IMG/VR virus record: IMGVR_UViG_3300009285_000570
Coordinates: 1-49,243 of that record
Length of the DNA: 49,243 nt
Source of the DNA: a virus
Direction: 5' to 3' (one strand)
Position 1 is the stretch's first letter. Each line of letters begins with the position of its first letter. Position numbers and translations under genes: made by a program. The notes beneath the pieces are model-generated. The model was not told the DNA's origin. It made no database searches and saw nothing but the letters and a program-made list of their open reading frames with translations. Positions 608 to 49,243 of the stretch are shown here, one piece after another.

Positions 608-648
608 TGTAGGGAGACCACGGGTCAAGACGTGCTCCGTCGTAGGCG

Positions 649-668
649 AAGAGCCCTATGGGCTTTTT
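649..668 (+). terminator. Rho-independent terminator-like hairpin
   Basis: AGCCC (652-656), loop TAT, GGGCT (660-664), followed by TTTT. The stem can be extended by a G-T wobble and two A-T pairs at its base. It would end the transcript of the two genes at 78-582 before the tRNA. The remaining bases of 583-759 hold no convincing ORF. Confidence 0.55.
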
Positions 669-759
669 CATAGCGACGTTAAATGGCAGAAGCCCTAGCC
701 AAAGAGATTAGCCCTTAAGATGCTGACTCACGGAAAGCATTTGGTCTTCCTACAGGGAC

Positions 760-834
760 AGCGGGGTAGAGCAGTGGCAGCTCGTCAGGCTCATAACCTG
801 AAGGTCGTTGGTTCGAATCCAACCCCCGCAACCA
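760..834 (+). tRNA. tRNA-Met(CAT), initiator-like
   Basis: Complete 75-nt cloverleaf with encoded CCA. Acceptor 761-766 pairs with the C/G run ending at 829. D stem is GAGC/GCTC. Anticodon stem is TCAGG/CCTGA with loop CTCATAA (anticodon CAT). T arm is GTTGG/CCAAC with loop TTCGAAT. Initiator features are an unpaired first position (A1 opposite A72), as in bacterial initiators that have C1-A72, and an A11-U24 pair in the D stem. The anticodon stem carries AGG/CCU where the usual initiator has GGG/CCC. I believe AGG/CCU variants are known in some bacteria. An elongator tRNA-Met or tRNA-Ile2 would normally have a paired 1-72. Confidence 0.88.
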
Positions 835-907
835 AGGGGAGACGAGCATAGAACCCAAGGGGTAATGCCTGGAGGGTTTGACGTGGGTGCAACTCCCACC
901 TCCTCTA
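835..907 (+). ncRNA. tRNA-like element with missing anticodon arm
   Basis: Begins at the base after the CCA of the tRNA. A 7-bp acceptor-like stem (835-841 with 900-906, one G-T wobble) stacks on a clear T arm (GTGGG 883-887, loop TGCAACT, CCCAC 895-899). The middle cannot form normal D and anticodon arms. Instead it folds as one hairpin: AACCC 852-856 with GGGTT 874-878, with AGG/CCT further in. No CCA follows. It could be a decayed tRNA gene or a minihelix that recruits RNase P to cut at 834/835. A 22-nt spacer separates it from the next gene. Confidence 0.5.
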
Positions 908-929
908 ATATAATTTAATACAATTAAAA

Positions 930-1688
930 ATGAGTAAGATTCTTATATTTGATATTGAGATAAGCCCTATAATTTCTTATAACTGGAGACTGTGGCAGTC
1001 TGACGCTATAGACGTGGTAGAAGACTGGCAGATACTGTGTTTCGCTTATAAGTGGGCTGATGAAAAGAGAGTCCATGTGGTGGCACAGGACGATTTTAAA
1101 GACTGGAAGCCAGGCACTAACGACGATAAGAACGTGGTTACTAGACTACACGAACTGTTCGACGAGGCCGACATAATAGTAGCCCACAATGGGGATGCTT
1201 ACGATATTAAAAGAGCCCACGCTAGAATGATGGTACACAAACTACCCCCTCCATCGCCTTCCAAGACCGTAGACACCCTTAAAGTAGCACGTAAAGTGGC
1301 TGGCTTTTCTTCAAACAAACTAGCCTCGCTAGTACTACAGCTTAACCTGGGGGAGAAAGACGACGCTGGGGGTATTGAAGTTATTAAAGGAGTACTTAAA
1401 GGAGTTAAAAAAGATTGGAAACACTTAAAGAAATACTGTAAGAAAGACGTTACCATACTAGAAGCACTCTACTACGAACTACTACCCTGGATGTCTAACC
1501 ACCCTTCACTCGCCGTACTAGACGACCAGCCTGAGGCATGCCCTAGGTGTGGGTCTACCCATATGCGTAAGGGTGGCTTCTACACTACCAAGACCGGTAA
1601 GTATAAAAGATACCAGTGCCTTGATTGTGGCGGCTGGACTAGAGGCCGTAAACTACATAAGTCTAATGTTGAATGCCTAATCATATGA
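930..1688 (+). CDS. DnaQ/RNase H-fold 3'-5' exonuclease with C-terminal zinc ribbon
   Basis: Predicted metal-dependent nuclease of the RNase H-like (DEDD) superfamily. Exo I motif is D8-I-E10. Exo II is H86-N-G-D89 followed by YDIKR. Exo III has Y169..D173 (YCKKDV). The C-terminus holds a zinc ribbon with Cys pairs near 204/207 and 230/233 (CPRCGS, CLDCGG), resembling ribbons of transposases and YprB-like nucleases. The four acidic positions needed for two-metal catalysis are present, so it is probably active. Role could be processing of replication intermediates or host DNA/RNA. It has no Shine-Dalgarno sequence. The next tiny gene starts inside its stop (ATGA), implying translational coupling. 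Confidence 0.85.
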   Translation: MSKILIFDIEISPIISYNWRLWQSDAIDVVEDWQILCFAYKWADEKRVHVVAQDDFKDWKPGTNDDKNVVTRLHELFDEADIIVAHNGDAYDIKRAHARMMVHKLPPPSPSKTVDTLKVARKVAGFSSNKLASLVLQLNLGEKDDAGGIEVIKGVLKGVKKDWKHLKKYCKKDVTILEALYYELLPWMSNHPSLAVLDDQPEACPRCGSTHMRKGGFYTTKTGKYKRYQCLDCGGWTRGRKLHKSNVECLII

Positions 1689-3991: not shown

Positions 3992-5086
3992 ATGAGTGAG
4001 CTAAGAAAGTGCTTAGAGTGTGGAGAGTACTTACCTAGTGAAGAAACTACATACATACTAAGTCAGAGTGGGTATGTATGTGATAAGTGCTTAGAGGATT
4101 GTTACTTCACTTGTGAGGGATGTAATAAGTATCACCACCTTGATAACGCCTATTACATAGATAGTGAAGGCATTTATGTATGTGAAAGCTGTTATTATGA
4201 AAGCTATGGTAGATGTACTAGTTGTGATTACAGGATGAGAATAGAAGATATGTACTATTACTGTGGCGACTACTACTGCCCAGACTGTTACAATGATTGT
4301 GAGGATGAGGAAATTATAGATGAATATCATTGTGGTGGTGGTAGAGGTGACTACTCTAAGGATTACCGATATAGAGTAGGGGTAGAACTTGAGAGAGAAG
4401 ATAGAGATACAAAGGAGAGTATTGATACTTACAAATTGAGAAATGACTATGGGTGGGTGGTTGAAAGTGATAGTTCTCTTGATAGTTTTAGTGGATTTGA
4501 AGCTATCAGTCCTATACTACCACTAAGACTTGGCGATTTAGAAAAGCTATTCAGTGATGAGGATATTAGAAGTCTAGTGAGAGCTGAATATACTTCTGAT
4601 TGTGGAGGACATATGACTATATCAGATACCAAGAGAAATCCAGACCAACTGATAGATGATATAGCAGGATACTTGCCTATACTATATGCCTTATTCCCTA
4701 ACAGAACCACTAACCATTATTGTGAACCAAGGGAGAAGGATTTTTATAAGGTGGGTGGTAGGTATGCTTTGAATAAGAGGGGTAGTTATAAAGGGGATGG
4801 ATTAGAGATAAGACTATTTGATGCCCCAAAAGATGAGGTAGATTTGATGAATAGATTTAGACTACTCAAGTTCATGCTAAGTCATAGGGCTACAACCATA
4901 GAGCAAGGGCTTAGGTTGTTAAGTGAGAGTAAGAAATTAAGAAAGGTAGTAAAGAACCACCTTGATATGTATGAGATAGCATACAAGGATTTTTATAGTA
5001 ACCTAGTAAGGTATGCTAGAGAGATAGATAAAATACGGTTAAGAAATATTGATATAGAGGATATAGATAGTATTCTTAATAGATAA
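3992..5086 (+). CDS. Amidoligase (COOH-NH2 ligase) with N-terminal zinc-binding array
   Basis: Predicted ATP-dependent ligase of the glutamine-synthetase-like amidoligase family (Amidoligase_2), which forms amide or peptide bonds. The N-terminus (about 1-110) is a string of paired cysteines (C7/C10, C30/C33, C41/C44 and more), read as tandem zinc ribbons or LIM-like knuckles. The ligase domain shows GVELERE (130-136), GWVVESDSSL (154-163), GFEAISP (168-174), CGGHMTIS (204-211) and LEIRLFDAP, the expected metal- and ATP-binding acidic and basic positions. It is first in a four-gene cassette with a glutamine amidotransferase, a second amidoligase and an ATP-grasp enzyme. The substrate is unknown; the zinc array may bind the target protein or nucleic acid. 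Confidence 0.8.
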   Translation: MSELRKCLECGEYLPSEETTYILSQSGYVCDKCLEDCYFTCEGCNKYHHLDNAYYIDSEGIYVCESCYYESYGRCTSCDYRMRIEDMYYYCGDYYCPDCYNDCEDEEIIDEYHCGGGRGDYSKDYRYRVGVELEREDRDTKESIDTYKLRNDYGWVVESDSSLDSFSGFEAISPILPLRLGDLEKLFSDEDIRSLVRAEYTSDCGGHMTISDTKRNPDQLIDDIAGYLPILYALFPNRTTNHYCEPREKDFYKVGGRYALNKRGSYKGDGLEIRLFDAPKDEVDLMNRFRLLKFMLSHRATTIEQGLRLLSESKKLRKVVKNHLDMYEIAYKDFYSNLVRYAREIDKIRLRNIDIEDIDSILNR

Positions 5087-5112: not shown

Positions 5113-6147
5113 ATGTGTGGAATAGCGAGTTTGATAAACGTAAACCCAGAGAATAGGGAACTAGCAAAGAGGATATTCAAATCAATTCTTCTAGCTAATG
5201 AGAGTAGGGGTAGTGATAGCACAGGGGTGCTATCTATTGAGAGAGAGAGCAACCAGTTCTCCCTATTCAAAGATACCCTAAGAGCAAGTGAGTTCTTAAA
5301 GAGAAGAAAGTTTAGACAAGTGGAGGGTGATGTGTGGATAGGGCATACCAGACAGGCAACAACTGGTAGTGTGAATATAAGAAATGCCCACCCACTACAG
5401 CGAAAGGATATATTTTTAGTACATAATGGTATGATAAGTAATCATAGAGATATAGCTAAGAGCCTTGAGCTAGAGTATGAAGTGGATAGTGAGGTACTAA
5501 TACCGATAGTAGAGAAGGGGGATTGGGATTTGTTAGTGGATGTAAAGGGTAGCTTCAACTTCATAGCATGGGATAAACCTAATGAAAAGATAATAGTTGA
5601 AAGGCACGACAATCCTCTCTACTGTTTAACCTTAAAGGAATTAAACATGGTGATGTTTAGTTCTATAAGAGATGTGTTACAGTTTATAGCAGGACACTAT
5701 GGAGATGGCAGTGGGGTATTTGAATTCACTGAGGATACCATAGTAGAATTAGATATGAAAGGTAATGTTATAGGTGAGCCTAAGAAGTTAGAGTTCCCAG
5801 AAATACTATTACCTAGTACACAGGTAGTGAATAAAGTTTATAGTAGCTACTCAGATGAGAGATACCCTAGCTATTATAGTGATGATGATGATGAGAGTGA
5901 TATAGATGAATACATGAGGATATACAAAGACAACAAAGATGAAGACCTATTTTGTGAGGGGTGTGGGTGTGAGATAGAACCAGATGAGAAAGAAATGGGT
6001 ATTAAAGAGTGGGGCTTTGGTCTATGCTATCAGTGTCTAGGTGAGTTGGCAGTAGCAGAAGAATGTATTAAGCATGGAGAACCAATAGACCTAAAGGATA
6101 AACAGTGGAATAAGTTCTCCCATATACTAGAATATTATTTACCTTAG
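5113..6147 (+). CDS. Class II glutamine amidotransferase (Ntn hydrolase) with C-terminal zinc ribbon
   Basis: N-terminal glutaminase domain like that of GlmS or PurF. The start is fixed by the catalytic Cys2 (MCGIASL). Other family motifs are RGSDSTG (32-38), GHTRQATTG (77-85), AHPL (92-95) and HNGM (104-107). Such domains release ammonia from glutamine. No sugar-isomerase or other acceptor domain is fused. The C-terminus instead has an Asp/Tyr-rich linker and a small zinc ribbon (CEGCGCE, then CYQC). It probably supplies ammonia, or acts as an amide hydrolase, in concert with the amidoligases on either side. Gaps of 26 and 21 nt indicate one operon. Confidence 0.9.
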   Translation: MCGIASLINVNPENRELAKRIFKSILLANESRGSDSTGVLSIERESNQFSLFKDTLRASEFLKRRKFRQVEGDVWIGHTRQATTGSVNIRNAHPLQRKDIFLVHNGMISNHRDIAKSLELEYEVDSEVLIPIVEKGDWDLLVDVKGSFNFIAWDKPNEKIIVERHDNPLYCLTLKELNMVMFSSIRDVLQFIAGHYGDGSGVFEFTEDTIVELDMKGNVIGEPKKLEFPEILLPSTQVVNKVYSSYSDERYPSYYSDDDDESDIDEYMRIYKDNKDEDLFCEGCGCEIEPDEKEMGIKEWGFGLCYQCLGELAVAEECIKHGEPIDLKDKQWNKFSHILEYYLP

Positions 6148-6168
6148 TTAAATTAATCATTAAAATAT

Positions 6169-7893
6169 ATGACAGAAAAAGAATTATTAGAAGAAAAGAA
6201 GTCTATGCTACACCACTACTTTAAGGTGGTACTGTGTAGTATGACAGGTGGTGGTTCGGATAGTTTGTATGACGCCTTTGAGTTAGAGTACCTACCTAAA
6301 ATAAAGGTTAAGAAACTAGGAGAGAGTACAACCCTATTAGAAATACCAGAGCTAGACTTTGAAAGACTGTACATAGGTACGTCTGAGAAGATGACAAGAA
6401 TAGGGTTCATGCTAGGGTTCTCAGTGGGTGGTAGTTCACCAATAGAGTTAGCATTAGAGAGAGTTAATGAGAGGTTGGCAATATTAAACCCAGACCTAAG
6501 GGTAGTTGAAAGGCATGATGAGTATGATAATGAGTACTACTACTACCTTGAAATGTTAGGTACAAGTAGGGAGTGGGAGGAGGGTGAGTGGTGTAGGATA
6601 TCAGAGATACTGGTAGAGGGTAATAGTATGATGAATAGAACTAGAGAACATTGGGCATGGGTATTCAATTCCTTTGCTGGAATGAATGTGTCAGTAGATA
6701 AGGACATAGTAGACTTTGTAGGTGGGGTACATGGAATATTAACAAACACTTGTATTGAGTGTGGTACTACAATAATAGGGGCAGAAATGATTGTATGTCC
6801 TATGTGTCAGCATAAATACGCAAGGTGTGATGATTGTGGTGAGCTTATAAAGATAAGTGAGGGTGTGAGTATGAACAGAGGGTTCTTATGTAAGGGGTGT
6901 GCTACTAAGCCTAGATGTAGGGCGTGTGGAAGAACAGTTAATCTTGATAGTGGTAACCTGTGTGATAGGTGTAGTGATTTACATAGCATACTAGATTACC
7001 ATACTAACATAGGTAGGCAGGATGAGAGTAAGGATAGTAGGTTAAAGATAGGGTATGAGGTAGAAAAAGAAGATAAGAAAGTCAAGAATGGTCTTGATAA
7101 TGCCAAGTTAATGTCAAGTTCTGGGTGGGTAGCCGAAAGGGATGGCTCACTAGGTTGGACAGGGTTTGAGTTGATTAGTCCAGTACTACCACTAGATACT
7201 ACAAAGCTACCAGAATTACTAAGACCATTGAAGGAATTATTAAAGGCTGATGTTACTGATAGGTGTGGTGGACACATACATGTGTCGGATACTAAAAGAA
7301 CCCCTTATGAAATACTGTTAGATATAAGAGGATACCTACCCCTACTGTATGGGTTGTATCCTAAGAGGTCTATCAATCCATACTGTGAGGCTAAGGAGAA
7401 GGAGAGTTACATACAAACAGGACACAGACAGGCTGTCAATGTAACAGGTAGGACACTAGAGTTTAGAATATTCCCAGCAGTAAGGAACATGGAACAGCTG
7501 TTGTTTAGAACCAAGCTATTAGAGTACATGTTAAAGAACAAGGAGACAGATGTGGTAAGGGTAGGTGAACTACTACTCAATGAGGATAGTGAATTGTATA
7601 AGATACTAATAGAGAGAATAAGTACTAGTAAAATAAGGAAGAGAGCTGAAGCATTCATAGACTTTGCTAACTATATAGATAGAGACGCCTTAGTATTAAA
7701 GGGTAATAAGATAGAGAGGGTAATCAAAGTACCACAAATTAAGATAGATAAAGAGATACAGTTTGAAGCTATATCTAAACAGCTATCAGATGAGATGAGA
7801 AGTTCTAGAAGACCACCCTTTGGTAACTATCCTAGGCCTACTATGATAGATAGCAATGATTACGGATACTTTGCTAATTTAATTGAGGATTAA
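6169..7893 (+). CDS. Second amidoligase with central zinc ribbons
   Basis: 574 aa. Residues 1-190 form an unrecognised domain. About 195-268 is a run of CxxC pairs (CIECG, CPMC, CDDCG, CKGC, CRACG, CDRC), i.e. three zinc ribbons. From about 290 comes an amidoligase domain similar to that at 3992: IGYEVEKED, GWVAERDGSL, GFELISPVLPL, CGGHIHVSDTKR (from C366) and LEFRIFPA. The two ligases share the order of motifs and even the phrase SDTKR, so they are probably paralogues from a duplication. Having two in one operon suggests a two-step ligation, or two subunits. ATP and a carboxylate are expected substrates; the amine donor could be ammonia from the neighbouring amidotransferase. Confidence 0.8.
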   Translation: MTEKELLEEKKSMLHHYFKVVLCSMTGGGSDSLYDAFELEYLPKIKVKKLGESTTLLEIPELDFERLYIGTSEKMTRIGFMLGFSVGGSSPIELALERVNERLAILNPDLRVVERHDEYDNEYYYYLEMLGTSREWEEGEWCRISEILVEGNSMMNRTREHWAWVFNSFAGMNVSVDKDIVDFVGGVHGILTNTCIECGTTIIGAEMIVCPMCQHKYARCDDCGELIKISEGVSMNRGFLCKGCATKPRCRACGRTVNLDSGNLCDRCSDLHSILDYHTNIGRQDESKDSRLKIGYEVEKEDKKVKNGLDNAKLMSSSGWVAERDGSLGWTGFELISPVLPLDTTKLPELLRPLKELLKADVTDRCGGHIHVSDTKRTPYEILLDIRGYLPLLYGLYPKRSINPYCEAKEKESYIQTGHRQAVNVTGRTLEFRIFPAVRNMEQLLFRTKLLEYMLKNKETDVVRVGELLLNEDSELYKILIERISTSKIRKRAEAFIDFANYIDRDALVLKGNKIERVIKVPQIKIDKEIQFEAISKQLSDEMRSSRRPPFGNYPRPTMIDSNDYGYFANLIED

Positions 7894-7894
7894 T

Positions 7895-8803
7895 ATGAAA
7901 ACAATAATAACAAAAACAACAAGTAGAGATACCATTGGTAATGTAACAGCATACATGACCGAACAACTTAACCCTCTGTGGTATAGGTTAAGCAGACACA
8001 GGTACACAAGTAGACCACCCGATAGGGTAGACCTACTCATAAGATGGGGTTGTTCAGTACCACTTGACACACACATACCTCTTGTGTATAATAAGGGTAT
8101 AGGTAGTATGAATAATAAGGGGAGAGTTAGACAACTCTTATATGAAAACAATATACCAGTACCTAAACCAGTATCACATGATGATATCTTTGGTGCTAGA
8201 TATAACTATACTTTTAGATTTCCTATAGTGGTGAGACCTGCCTTTCACCAGAGAGGAAAAAACTTTTTGCTCTTTAATAATTTAACAGAGCTAGGTGAGG
8301 GTTGGGGTAAGATAGGTAGGCTAGACAACCCCTACATCTCTGAGTTCTATCCGAAGACTACAGAGTACAGGGTACACGTTGGTCACGGCAAGGTTCTCTT
8401 GGTACAACAGAAAGTCCAAACTTCTGTACCAGTTGGAGAGAACTGGAGTCATGAGAATGGGTATACCTTTGAGGTAATAGGATGGAAGCAATATCGTAAA
8501 GAGATTGTAGACCTAGCAGTAAGAACCATTGAGGTAGTCGGCTTAGACTTTGGAGCTGTTGATATAATGGCAGACCCATTAGACTCTAGCCTGCCAGTGG
8601 CAGTAGTGTGTGAGGTTAACACCTCTCCACGATTAGAGGGGTACACAGCCCAACGTTATGCCGAGTACTTTGATTGGTTAATAAGAACCAGAGAAGTAAG
8701 ACACTTCAAGATACCAGTAGATTTAAAAGCCAGACACTATGCCTTCAAGCATAGGGAACTGAGAGATAATAACTATGATTTAATTTTTAAAGAGGAAAGA
8801 TAA
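7895..8803 (+). CDS. ATP-grasp ligase (RimK/YheC-like)
   Basis: 302 aa. The ATG at 7895, one base after the previous stop, is preferred to an in-frame TTG at 7883. ATP-grasp features: pre-domain NNKGRVRQLLYENNIPVPKP, nucleotide-binding VVRPAFHQRGK (113-122), a hydrophobic ISEFYPKTTEYRV block, and the metal-binding end GAVDIMAD and EVNTSPRLEG (240-249, E240 and N242). Enzymes of this group activate a carboxylate as acyl-phosphate and join it to an amine, for example adding glutamate to proteins or making peptides. It is the last enzyme of the cassette and overlaps the next small gene by 1 nt (TAATG). Confidence 0.85.
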   Translation: MKTIITKTTSRDTIGNVTAYMTEQLNPLWYRLSRHRYTSRPPDRVDLLIRWGCSVPLDTHIPLVYNKGIGSMNNKGRVRQLLYENNIPVPKPVSHDDIFGARYNYTFRFPIVVRPAFHQRGKNFLLFNNLTELGEGWGKIGRLDNPYISEFYPKTTEYRVHVGHGKVLLVQQKVQTSVPVGENWSHENGYTFEVIGWKQYRKEIVDLAVRTIEVVGLDFGAVDIMADPLDSSLPVAVVCEVNTSPRLEGYTAQRYAEYFDWLIRTREVRHFKIPVDLKARHYAFKHRELRDNNYDLIFKEER

Positions 8804-38642: not shown

Positions 38643-39644
38643 TTAAGCTGTGTGTGTAGAACCGTCTCCAAGACTTCCTACAATACCCTGCCATCCGGAA
38701 ACTCCGTAAGCATATACGTCTGCTACCTTAGCATACATAACGTCGGTATCTTCATCTTCCCAAGCCTTTATCTCAAAGTTCTGAAGTTGTTTGAACTTCA
38801 AAAGTCTTCCAGTAAATGATGGGTCAATTAAGAAGTATCTCTTGTCGTAAGTTACTCTATCTGTAGAAGCTGTTTCGCCTCTGTTATAAGCAAATCTCCA
38901 TGACATGTATGGGTTTACCAATACATCCATGTTTCTTCCCTTGAAGTAGTTGACAGATTCGTCAACGCTTCCTGGAACCATATCTGCTTCAGCTATTTGT
39001 AATGCTTCCTCTCTGTTATAAGGGGTTACCATTAATATTAGCTTACTCTCTAGACCGATGTTAAGAGGAATACCCTTGTTAGAGAATACCTCATACATTA
39101 CATCTTCTAAATCTTTCAATGCGTCATAAGAAAGTGCATCTTGTACACCATCTAAGAAGGTGTTCCTTTGTGCAGTTCCACCATCTTTTCTAGGATGCTG
39201 TACTGAAATCAAAGGCATTCCATCACCGTATAATACAGTGTTGTCGAATGCATTTCTAAATATTGAGAAGGCATTTATATCCCTTCCCTGAGCTGCTTTT
39301 CTTGCAAGCTCTCTTGACATATCCTCTGCTTGAGCGATACTATACTGGTCTACTTTGTTAAGTAAACTAGAGATAGCCATCTTTCTCTTATAAGTGTTTA
39401 GCTCATACCTGTATGTGTACCCGATTAAGAGTTCATCTTCAGGAGATGCTGCTGATTCACCTACTAGTTCAGGATAGTCAATGCCAGACCAACTTGAGTC
39501 GTCCTCGAAGAGTTTGTTTGTGGTTTCTACAGAGAAAAGCTTACTGAGTAATGTTTTTACCATTACGTTGTCTGCTTCCTCTTGAATCCAGTTTTCAACT
39601 CCGCATACTGTTAGTTCTGGGTATGTACTTGTTATCATAGCCAT
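38643..39644 (-). CDS. Major capsid protein (Mu gpT/HK97-like)
   Basis: 333 aa. Features seen in gpT-type capsid proteins: E-loop-like region with YRYELNTYKRKMAIS, a long helix AQAEDMSRELARKAAQGRDINAF, the phrase VLYGDGMPLISVQHPRKDGG, a beta hinge (KLILMVTPYNREEALQ) and the final domain (VLVNPYMSWRFAY, YFLIDP). Position after a scaffold and a probable decoration protein agrees. Its length is near the family norm. Start ATG (MAMITSTYPEL) has an A/T-rich leader. Confidence 0.82.
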   Translation of the reverse strand: MAMITSTYPELTVCGVENWIQEEADNVMVKTLLSKLFSVETTNKLFEDDSSWSGIDYPELVGESAASPEDELLIGYTYRYELNTYKRKMAISSLLNKVDQYSIAQAEDMSRELARKAAQGRDINAFSIFRNAFDNTVLYGDGMPLISVQHPRKDGGTAQRNTFLDGVQDALSYDALKDLEDVMYEVFSNKGIPLNIGLESKLILMVTPYNREEALQIAEADMVPGSVDESVNYFKGRNMDVLVNPYMSWRFAYNRGETASTDRVTYDKRYFLIDPSFTGRLLKFKQLQNFEIKAWEDEDTDVMYAKVADVYAYGVSGWQGIVGSLGDGSTHTA

Positions 39645-49058: not shown

Positions 49059-49243
49059 ATGCAAGACCTTGGTAAGCTCAAAAAGAATGAGTTGATAGCC
49101 ATGGTGGAAGACCTCCAATTGGAGAACATTTCGCTCAAGGCAGAGGTAAAGATTCTTAGGGACAAGTTTCCTAAGGAGCCCTCGGTAGTCTATAAGGAGT
49201 GGAGGGGAACAACAGAGAGTAGCTATTGCAAGAGCATTGGTTG
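49059..49243 (+). CDS. Partial gene, coiled-coil protein, cut by window end
   Basis: At least 61 residues, open to the end of the window. ATG at 49059 follows GGAAGAAG in a 24-nt leader from the promoter at 48999. The start is a charged coiled coil (LGKLKKNELIAMVEDLQLEN, LKAEVKILRDKFPKEPSVV) followed by KEWRGTTESSYCKSIG. The product cannot be named from this part. It continues the early replication region. Confidence 0.6.
   Translation, partial: MQDLGKLKKNELIAMVEDLQLENISLKAEVKILRDKFPKEPSVVYKEWRGTTESSYCKSIG

Follow-up and report, generated by a model that had tools for sequence, protein, structure and literature searches.

A phage locus with an initiator-class tRNA-Met between an orphan structured RNA and a candidate TLD-only tmRNA

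Introduction

Among phages, the closest described counterpart of one of the RNAs reported here is found in mycobacteriophage DS6A, whose tmRNA is listed as 'TLD only' (PMC4131195), that is, as little more than a tRNA-like domain (TLD). According to the same source, which cites Mao et al. 2009, a DS6A-like molecule is a strong inhibitor of tmRNA whether or not it can be charged, and titration of SmpB may be the cause; the statement is repeated in a 2025 database paper (PMC11915505). DS6A is the one phage case of a TLD-only tmRNA that these two sources report, and the database paper counts 9 'standard, no CDS' tmRNAs among 97,179 unique sequences. A second point of comparison is the permuted (two-piece) tmRNA (RF04321), in which a tmRNA-like acceptor and T arm are likewise found and several RNA domains share one locus. 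Finally, initiator-type tRNAs in phages are of a known kind.

Here, we describe a locus of a virus sequence in which an initiator-class tRNA-Met is flanked by two further RNAs. Taken by itself, the tRNA belongs to the known kind; the combination of a structured core, an initiator tRNA and a TLD is new. The window referred to below is the whole 49,243-nucleotide stretch of DNA that was analyzed.

Results

Organization of the locus and its relatives. The window is an IMG/VR virus record with terminase, portal and tail genes, in line with the description of the tRNA as phage-encoded in an earlier note made from the sequence. That note's account of the locus holds in part: it classed the tRNA correctly but overlooked the orphan core and the tmRNA-like RNA that borders the tRNA, both of which are kept by relatives (Table 1). 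These relatives were located through the exonuclease gene downstream of the RNAs. A near twin of the window (contigs L002 and L006, 99.92–99.95% identical) carries the tRNA, and in L006 the tRNA and its flanks show 0 differences in 360 nt. Two further contigs, L003 and L004, encode an exonuclease that is 75% identical. ARAGORN detected no tRNA in either of them, while the sequence on both sides of it, i.e., the core RNA and the TLD-like RNA, is kept. As the initiator tRNA is missing from these two nearest relatives, it is dispensable in the L003/L004 lineage.

Table 1 Features of the RNA locus and related candidate RNAs in other viral contigs
Feature	Position	Strand	Basis or remark
Orphan structured RNA core	609..753	+	11-bp closing helix 609-619/743-753
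Initiator-type tRNA-Met (CAU)	760..834	+	ARAGORN, Rfam, Dojkabacteria identity
Candidate TLD-only tmRNA-like RNA	835..907	+	Covariation, host tmRNA similarity, sub-threshold RF00023 match
RNase_H_2/DnaQ-like exonuclease with C-terminal zinc ribbon	930..1688	+	Gene downstream of the RNA cassette
Candidate TLD-only tmRNA-like RNA	L310:1418-1490		RF00023; no ARAGORN call
Candidate TLD-only tmRNA-like RNA	L324:2852-2929		RF00023; no ARAGORN call
Candidate TLD-only tmRNA-like RNA	L284:13024-13126	-	RF00023; no ARAGORN call
Candidate TLD-only tmRNA-like RNA	L261:3727-3809	-	RF00023; no ARAGORN call

Several other properties of the window were recorded. Contig L002 crosses the window ends (1-45 and 49220-49243), with its position 4097 falling on 49220 and its position 4117 on 46, and the genome is therefore probably circular or circularly permuted. 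Three adjacent genes at 5113-8803 match glutamine amidotransferase, amidoligase_2 and RimK-like ATP-grasp, which is odd for a phage, and the non-coding stretch at 2217-2832, in which words like CTATAG/TACTAC recur and a run of G is present, is a possible origin or control region. The earlier note had also remarked on many starts lacking an SD sequence. This depletion is real in the window: an SD-like 4-mer precedes 7 of 51 ORFs (chosen by hand, 47 of them starting with ATG), compared with 31% of 330 internal ATGs. The count does not, however, bear out the connection that the note drew between such starts and the initiator tRNA, which L003 and L004 lack.

An initiator-class tRNA-Met. The sole tRNA called by ARAGORN in the 49-kb window is a tRNA-Met(CAT), which scores 65.6 bits on the Rfam tRNA model (gathering score 29). 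Its first nucleotide, A1 (760), stands opposite A72 (830), followed by A73 (831) and an encoded CCA (832-834). The D loop has 7 nt, and all stems are intact. The anticodon (792-794) lies in the loop CUCAUAA, closed by the stem UCAGG (785-789)/CCUGA (797-801), which places AGG/CCU at positions 29-31/39-41. Bacterial initiators are marked by the absence of a Watson-Crick pair at 1:72, by a purine 11:pyrimidine 24 pair and by three G:C-rich pairs at 29-31/39-41 (GGG/CCC or AGG/CCU), for which the window tRNA has A1xA72, A11:U24 (770/782) and AGG/CCU, respectively. In published counts (PMC5143459), 98.6% of bacterial initiators have a mismatch at 1:72; A11:U24 is present in 4430 of 4438 initiators but in none of 2762 elongator Met and none of 2717 kIle tRNAs; AxA at 1:72 is present in 39, 0 and 2 of the same sets; and the AGG,CCU stem is present in 522 initiators, one elongator Met and one kIle. 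These trait counts therefore place the tRNA in the initiator class, and, judged by its sequence, it is a complete initiator-class tRNA-Met. The identification as initiator-type in the earlier note is thus borne out. The note had pointed out AGG/CCU in place of GGG/CCC, but this stem is an ordinary variant: besides its share of the published initiators, it occurs in 54 of at least 120 bacterial loci with the same D-loop type (the window subtracted).

The usual role of phage tRNAs in elongation, invoked in the note, has exceptions, as initiator-type tRNAs are present in cultivated phages. In nine INPHARED regions that were read, the tRNAs of Gordonia phage GodonK (U1) and of Stenotrophomonas phage QDWS359 (C1) appeared by eye to be of the initiator type, and a tRNA-fMet was annotated in one of the nine, that of QDWS359. 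Both share the 1:72 mismatch and A11:U24 (again by eye) with the window tRNA, from which they differ by their other hosts, their longer D loops and a U or C as nucleotide 1. When the window locus was compared to INPHARED with blastn, the tRNA part was the sole match in each of the 25 records listed out of 428.

Origin of the tRNA. When bacterial genomes were searched with an initiator pattern that has a short D loop, at least 120 loci were returned. The best among the matches listed were in two contigs of Candidatus Dojkabacteria (L060 and L156), which are identical to the phage tRNA at 74 of 75 positions, the sole difference being nucleotide 1. Of 76 Dojkabacteria genomes, 8 have an initiator that is fully identical over nucleotides 2-75 (74/74), and at nucleotide 1 the phage tRNA has A where the host gene has C (or U). 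A stricter pattern that allowed A, C or T at this position returned 14 Dojkabacteria matches, of which 12 had C1, two had U1 and none had A1. The window copy also differs from these host genes in being phage-encoded beside other RNAs, and no flanking sequence was shared with the two host loci L060 and L156. Given the 74/74 identity, the phage seems to have captured the tRNA gene recently from its host, which is probably a member of Candidatus Dojkabacteria (CPR), an assignment drawn solely from the RNAs. Among the at least 120 bacterial loci listed, the sole A1xA72 initiator was that of Candidatus Stammera capleta (L136), which has a reduced genome.

A passive origin was considered, in which the tRNA would be a recent recombination hitch-hiker without function for the phage. 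The 74/75 identity to the host tRNA leaves little time for drift, and the absence of the gene from L003 and L004 would also agree with this. However, the tRNA is unchanged in the near twin, a second contig that does differ elsewhere, all of its stems are intact, and its single change preserves the 1:72 mismatch. On these grounds the hitch-hiker explanation was rejected as unlikely, in favor of a captured host gene that is retained.

Nucleotide 1 in viral initiator-type tRNAs. Two patterns retrieved 34 and 10 initiator-type tRNAs from viral contigs (L009-L042 and L359-L367). After removal of one copy truncated at the edge of its contig, the set comprises 43 and includes the window twin L006. 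The 1:72 combinations in this set were CxA (11), AxA (9), UxC (7), UxA (5), AxC (3), GxA (3), CxU (2), AxU (2) and UxU (1), and C1 is thus absent from 30 of the 43. A1 was found in 14/43 viral copies versus 41/4438 published bacterial initiators (p = 2e-17) and AxA in 9/43 versus 39/4438 (p = 4e-10; PMC5143459 for both bacterial counts), p values that overstate the case because the viral copies are related, with the seven UxC copies looking like one lineage. With the 7-nt-D-loop pattern, A1 was present in 5 of 9 viral copies versus 1 of at least 120 bacterial ones. For the set with a 9-nt D loop the alphaproteobacterial control is thin, with matches in 9 of 115 genomes (8 C1, 1 A1).

Another explanation of the phage tRNA would be that it replaces a host initiator tRNA hit by defense toxins (VapC-type cleavage, acetyltransferases), with the change from C1 to A1 perhaps aiding escape. 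VapC-type toxins are reported to target tRNA-fMet (PMC10264068, PMC12482277), and the A1 count would fit, except that its viral entries are not independent. Against this, the VapC target is the anticodon stem-loop, which is the same as that of the host, and the eLife authors report that phages generally avoid encoding VapC-targeted tRNA-fMet. We regard this replacement as an unlikely explanation.

A TLD-only tmRNA-like RNA. Directly after the CCA of the tRNA starts a 73-nt RNA with an acceptor (835-841/900-906) that contains G3.U70, a D region without stem (842-850), a P2-like stem (851-856/874-879), a T arm (883-887/895-899) and A73 at 907. It has neither an encoded CCA nor an anticodon loop, and its size and its inner loop of 17 nt leave it without a tag reading frame. 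The spacing 7-9-6-17-6-3-5-7-5-7 is kept in 3/3 distinct sequences (those of the window, L003 and L004), as are the stemless D region, the T arm of 5 bp and 7 nt, the helix that replaces the anticodon arm, and the 7-bp acceptor with G3.U70 and A73. G3.U70 and A73 constitute alanine identity. All 18 pairs form in the three sequences and 7 of the 18 are changed on both sides (0/500 for shuffles, 0 for slid controls), in a comparison of three distinct sequences of which two are close kin. For a pseudoknot between the D region and the P2 loop, 4 bp were seen in the window and no consistent helix in L003 and L004.

The Rfam tmRNA model (RF00023) gives 22.9 bits for the window copy and 33.0 and 32.8 bits for those of L003 and L004, all below the gathering score of 47. 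Since a host tRNA-Ala gene reaches 32.1 bits on the same model, the Rfam score alone is not decisive. On the Rfam tRNA model, the L003 copy reaches 27.2 bits, just below the gathering score of 29. The RNA was therefore compared with the RNAs of one Dojkabacteria genome (G001) at 32 positions, comprising the acceptor, the T arm and nucleotide 73. The references covered 30 of 32 tRNA places and comprised 33 distinct sequences including the tmRNA. The tmRNA matched the window, L003 and L004 copies at 25, 27 and 28 positions, respectively, and the best host tRNA, among those examined, at 21, 22 and 21. In addition, the pattern of T arm plus CGTCTCCA had 25 matches in the 76 Dojkabacteria genomes, 24 of them within tmRNA genes by coordinates; the remaining one (G332) lies near the start of a contig without tmRNA call. 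The acceptor GGGGACG/CGTCTCC of L003 and L004 is that of most Dojkabacteria tmRNAs, its 5' strand being present in 18 of the 25 that ARAGORN read at 31 loci. From the placement of the CGTCTCCA pattern and the 32-position comparison, the most fitting identification of this RNA is a TLD-only tmRNA without tag. It should be noted that the window copy, whose T loop (TGCAACT) has G55, lacks a GG in the D region as well as an encoded CCA, and it may therefore be decaying.

Compared by description, the RNA of DS6A is alike in being phage-encoded and in comprising little beyond the tRNA-like domain of tmRNA. It differs in that its host belongs to another phylum and in that the window RNA is part of a cassette of core, tRNA and TLD. 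The TLD-only RNA might also act as a minimal rescue RNA that takes the stalled peptide without tagging it, instead of as an inhibitor. Mitochondria and some plastids retain tmRNAs without a tag, and a partial rescue function has been suggested for mitochondria (PMC11915505). The closest phage case, the DS6A-like RNA, is nevertheless reported to be inhibitory (PMC4131195, PMC11915505), and the window copy, with its altered T loop, lacks the encoded CCA, so that we hold minimal rescue to be improbable. An inhibitory TLD-only tmRNA is the reading we prefer.

Similar RNAs in other viral contigs. Outside Dojkabacteria, CGTCTCCA was rejected as a mark of tmRNA: the T arm plus CGTCTCCA motif occurred at no fewer than 120 places in viral contigs, including 26 tRNA-Tyr, 16 tRNA-Ala, 24 tmRNA, 51 uncalled and 3 others, and the argument above is thus restricted to Dojkabacteria. 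To filter these places for viral TLDs, a pairing 5' strand was sought 62-111 nt upstream and the entries without a tRNA call were read. ARAGORN and the pairing scans covered all 120 listed viral places, and model R1 was applied to 91 of the 119 new viral loci. The candidates were in L310 (70 nt), L324 (75 nt), L261 (80 nt), L284 (100 nt) and L269 (69 nt). RF00023 gives 65.4 bits for L310, 43.3 for L324, 41.0 for L261 and 49.4 for L284, of which the values for L310 and L284 exceed the gathering score of 47; L324 reaches 53 bits on the model of the window lineage. The RNA of L269 is TLD-like by folding and was left out of the count because it had no Rfam match at E 0.01. In L310, a sub-threshold match to Y RNA (YrlA; 33.6 bits, gathering score 69) was seen at 1872-1994, flanked by the TLD-only RNA and a tRNA-Asn.

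An orphan structured RNA core. Upstream of the tRNA, the 11-bp helix encloses inner hairpins, and a CGUG/CACG pseudoknot is possible. In L003, 10 of the 11 closing pairs form, and 4 of the 11 are changed on both sides relative to the window. RNAalifold predicted 46 pairs from the three-row alignment, 7 of them with two-sided changes. Overall identity is 76.6%, versus 69-73% in the neighboring genes; the core is therefore scarcely more conserved than its coding neighbors, and structure, more than conservation, supports it. No Rfam family matched the core. A pattern made from it had 0 matches in genome contigs and 3 in viral contigs, and model R2 found it in 0 of 76 Dojkabacteria genomes and, of 16 sources, in the window, L003 and L004 only. 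In these searches, the core has thus been seen only in the window/L003/L004 lineage. A looser pattern returned L183, which we read as unrelated and probably protein-coding. An 18-mer of the core (up to 2 mismatches) matched 5 of 286 Patescibacteria genomes; the reversed-pattern control gave at least as many, and these matches are attributed to chance. A short strong hairpin (GGACCAGGTCCTGGTCC) lies just upstream of the core, at 588-606.

The order of core and TLD raises the question of a rearranged tmRNA in which the core would be an mRNA-like domain (MLD) placed first. Both parts are structured and follow each other in this order in three sequences, and the TLD matches the host tmRNA. However, the frame GCA...TAA of the window (AEALAKEISP) is not closed by a stop at the corresponding place in L003 and L004, the permuted model RF04321 gives only 16.5 bits, in L003 only and far under threshold, and the TLD is closed on itself by its own P2-like hairpin. 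As the tag ORF is not conserved and the permuted model does not recognize the locus, an MLD-first tmRNA was rejected as very improbable. Least probable of all is that the phage once integrated at the initiator gene of its host and that the tRNA is the attachment site that resulted: tRNA genes are common att sites (PMC10865867) and a weak Arm-DNA-bind_3 match (38643-39644, E 0.005) lies below the cut-off, but the gene is a complete 75-nt tRNA and not merely a 3' half, its flanks are not common to the two host loci, and no integrase reached the Pfam cut-off in 30 ORFs scanned, which led us to reject it.

Discussion

Our main reading, to which we give a probability of roughly 0.55, is that the locus is a small cassette of translation RNAs, in which an orphan core is joined by a captured host initiator tRNA and a TLD-only tmRNA, in a phage probably of Dojkabacteria. 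One transcript could yield all three RNAs, and a single RNase P cut at 834/835 would free both the CCA end of the tRNA and the 5' end of the TLD. The phage tRNA would be charged with Met, formylated and used in initiation, where it may add to or replace the host initiator tRNA, for example under attack by host toxins; an extra initiator tRNA could also supply late translation. By analogy with the DS6A-like RNA, the TLD-only RNA may bind SmpB and/or AlaRS and block host trans-translation. We propose that it most likely competes for both. A role of the core as an RNA-processing or stability element is a guess.

More tentatively, and with clearly less confidence than for the cassette itself, the locus may serve a takeover of translation, combining the phage's own initiator tRNA, with its virus-typical change at nucleotide 1, with silencing of ribosome rescue by a TLD-only RNA and with an undescribed structured RNA. 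Under the same tentative proposal, TLD-only tmRNAs (those of the window lineage, L310, L324, L284 and L261) would be a class of anti-rescue RNAs of phages that has been overlooked, and the loss of C1 would be a recurrent viral adaptation; the viral departure from C1 is directly testable.

If these functions hold, a single phage locus would intervene both where translation starts and where ribosomes are rescued, in a group of bacteria with hardly any cultivated members. ARAGORN does not call the TLD-only RNAs described here, and, if the proposal is true, their presence in five viral lineages (that of the window and the four contigs) would mean that anti-rescue RNA is more widespread among phages.
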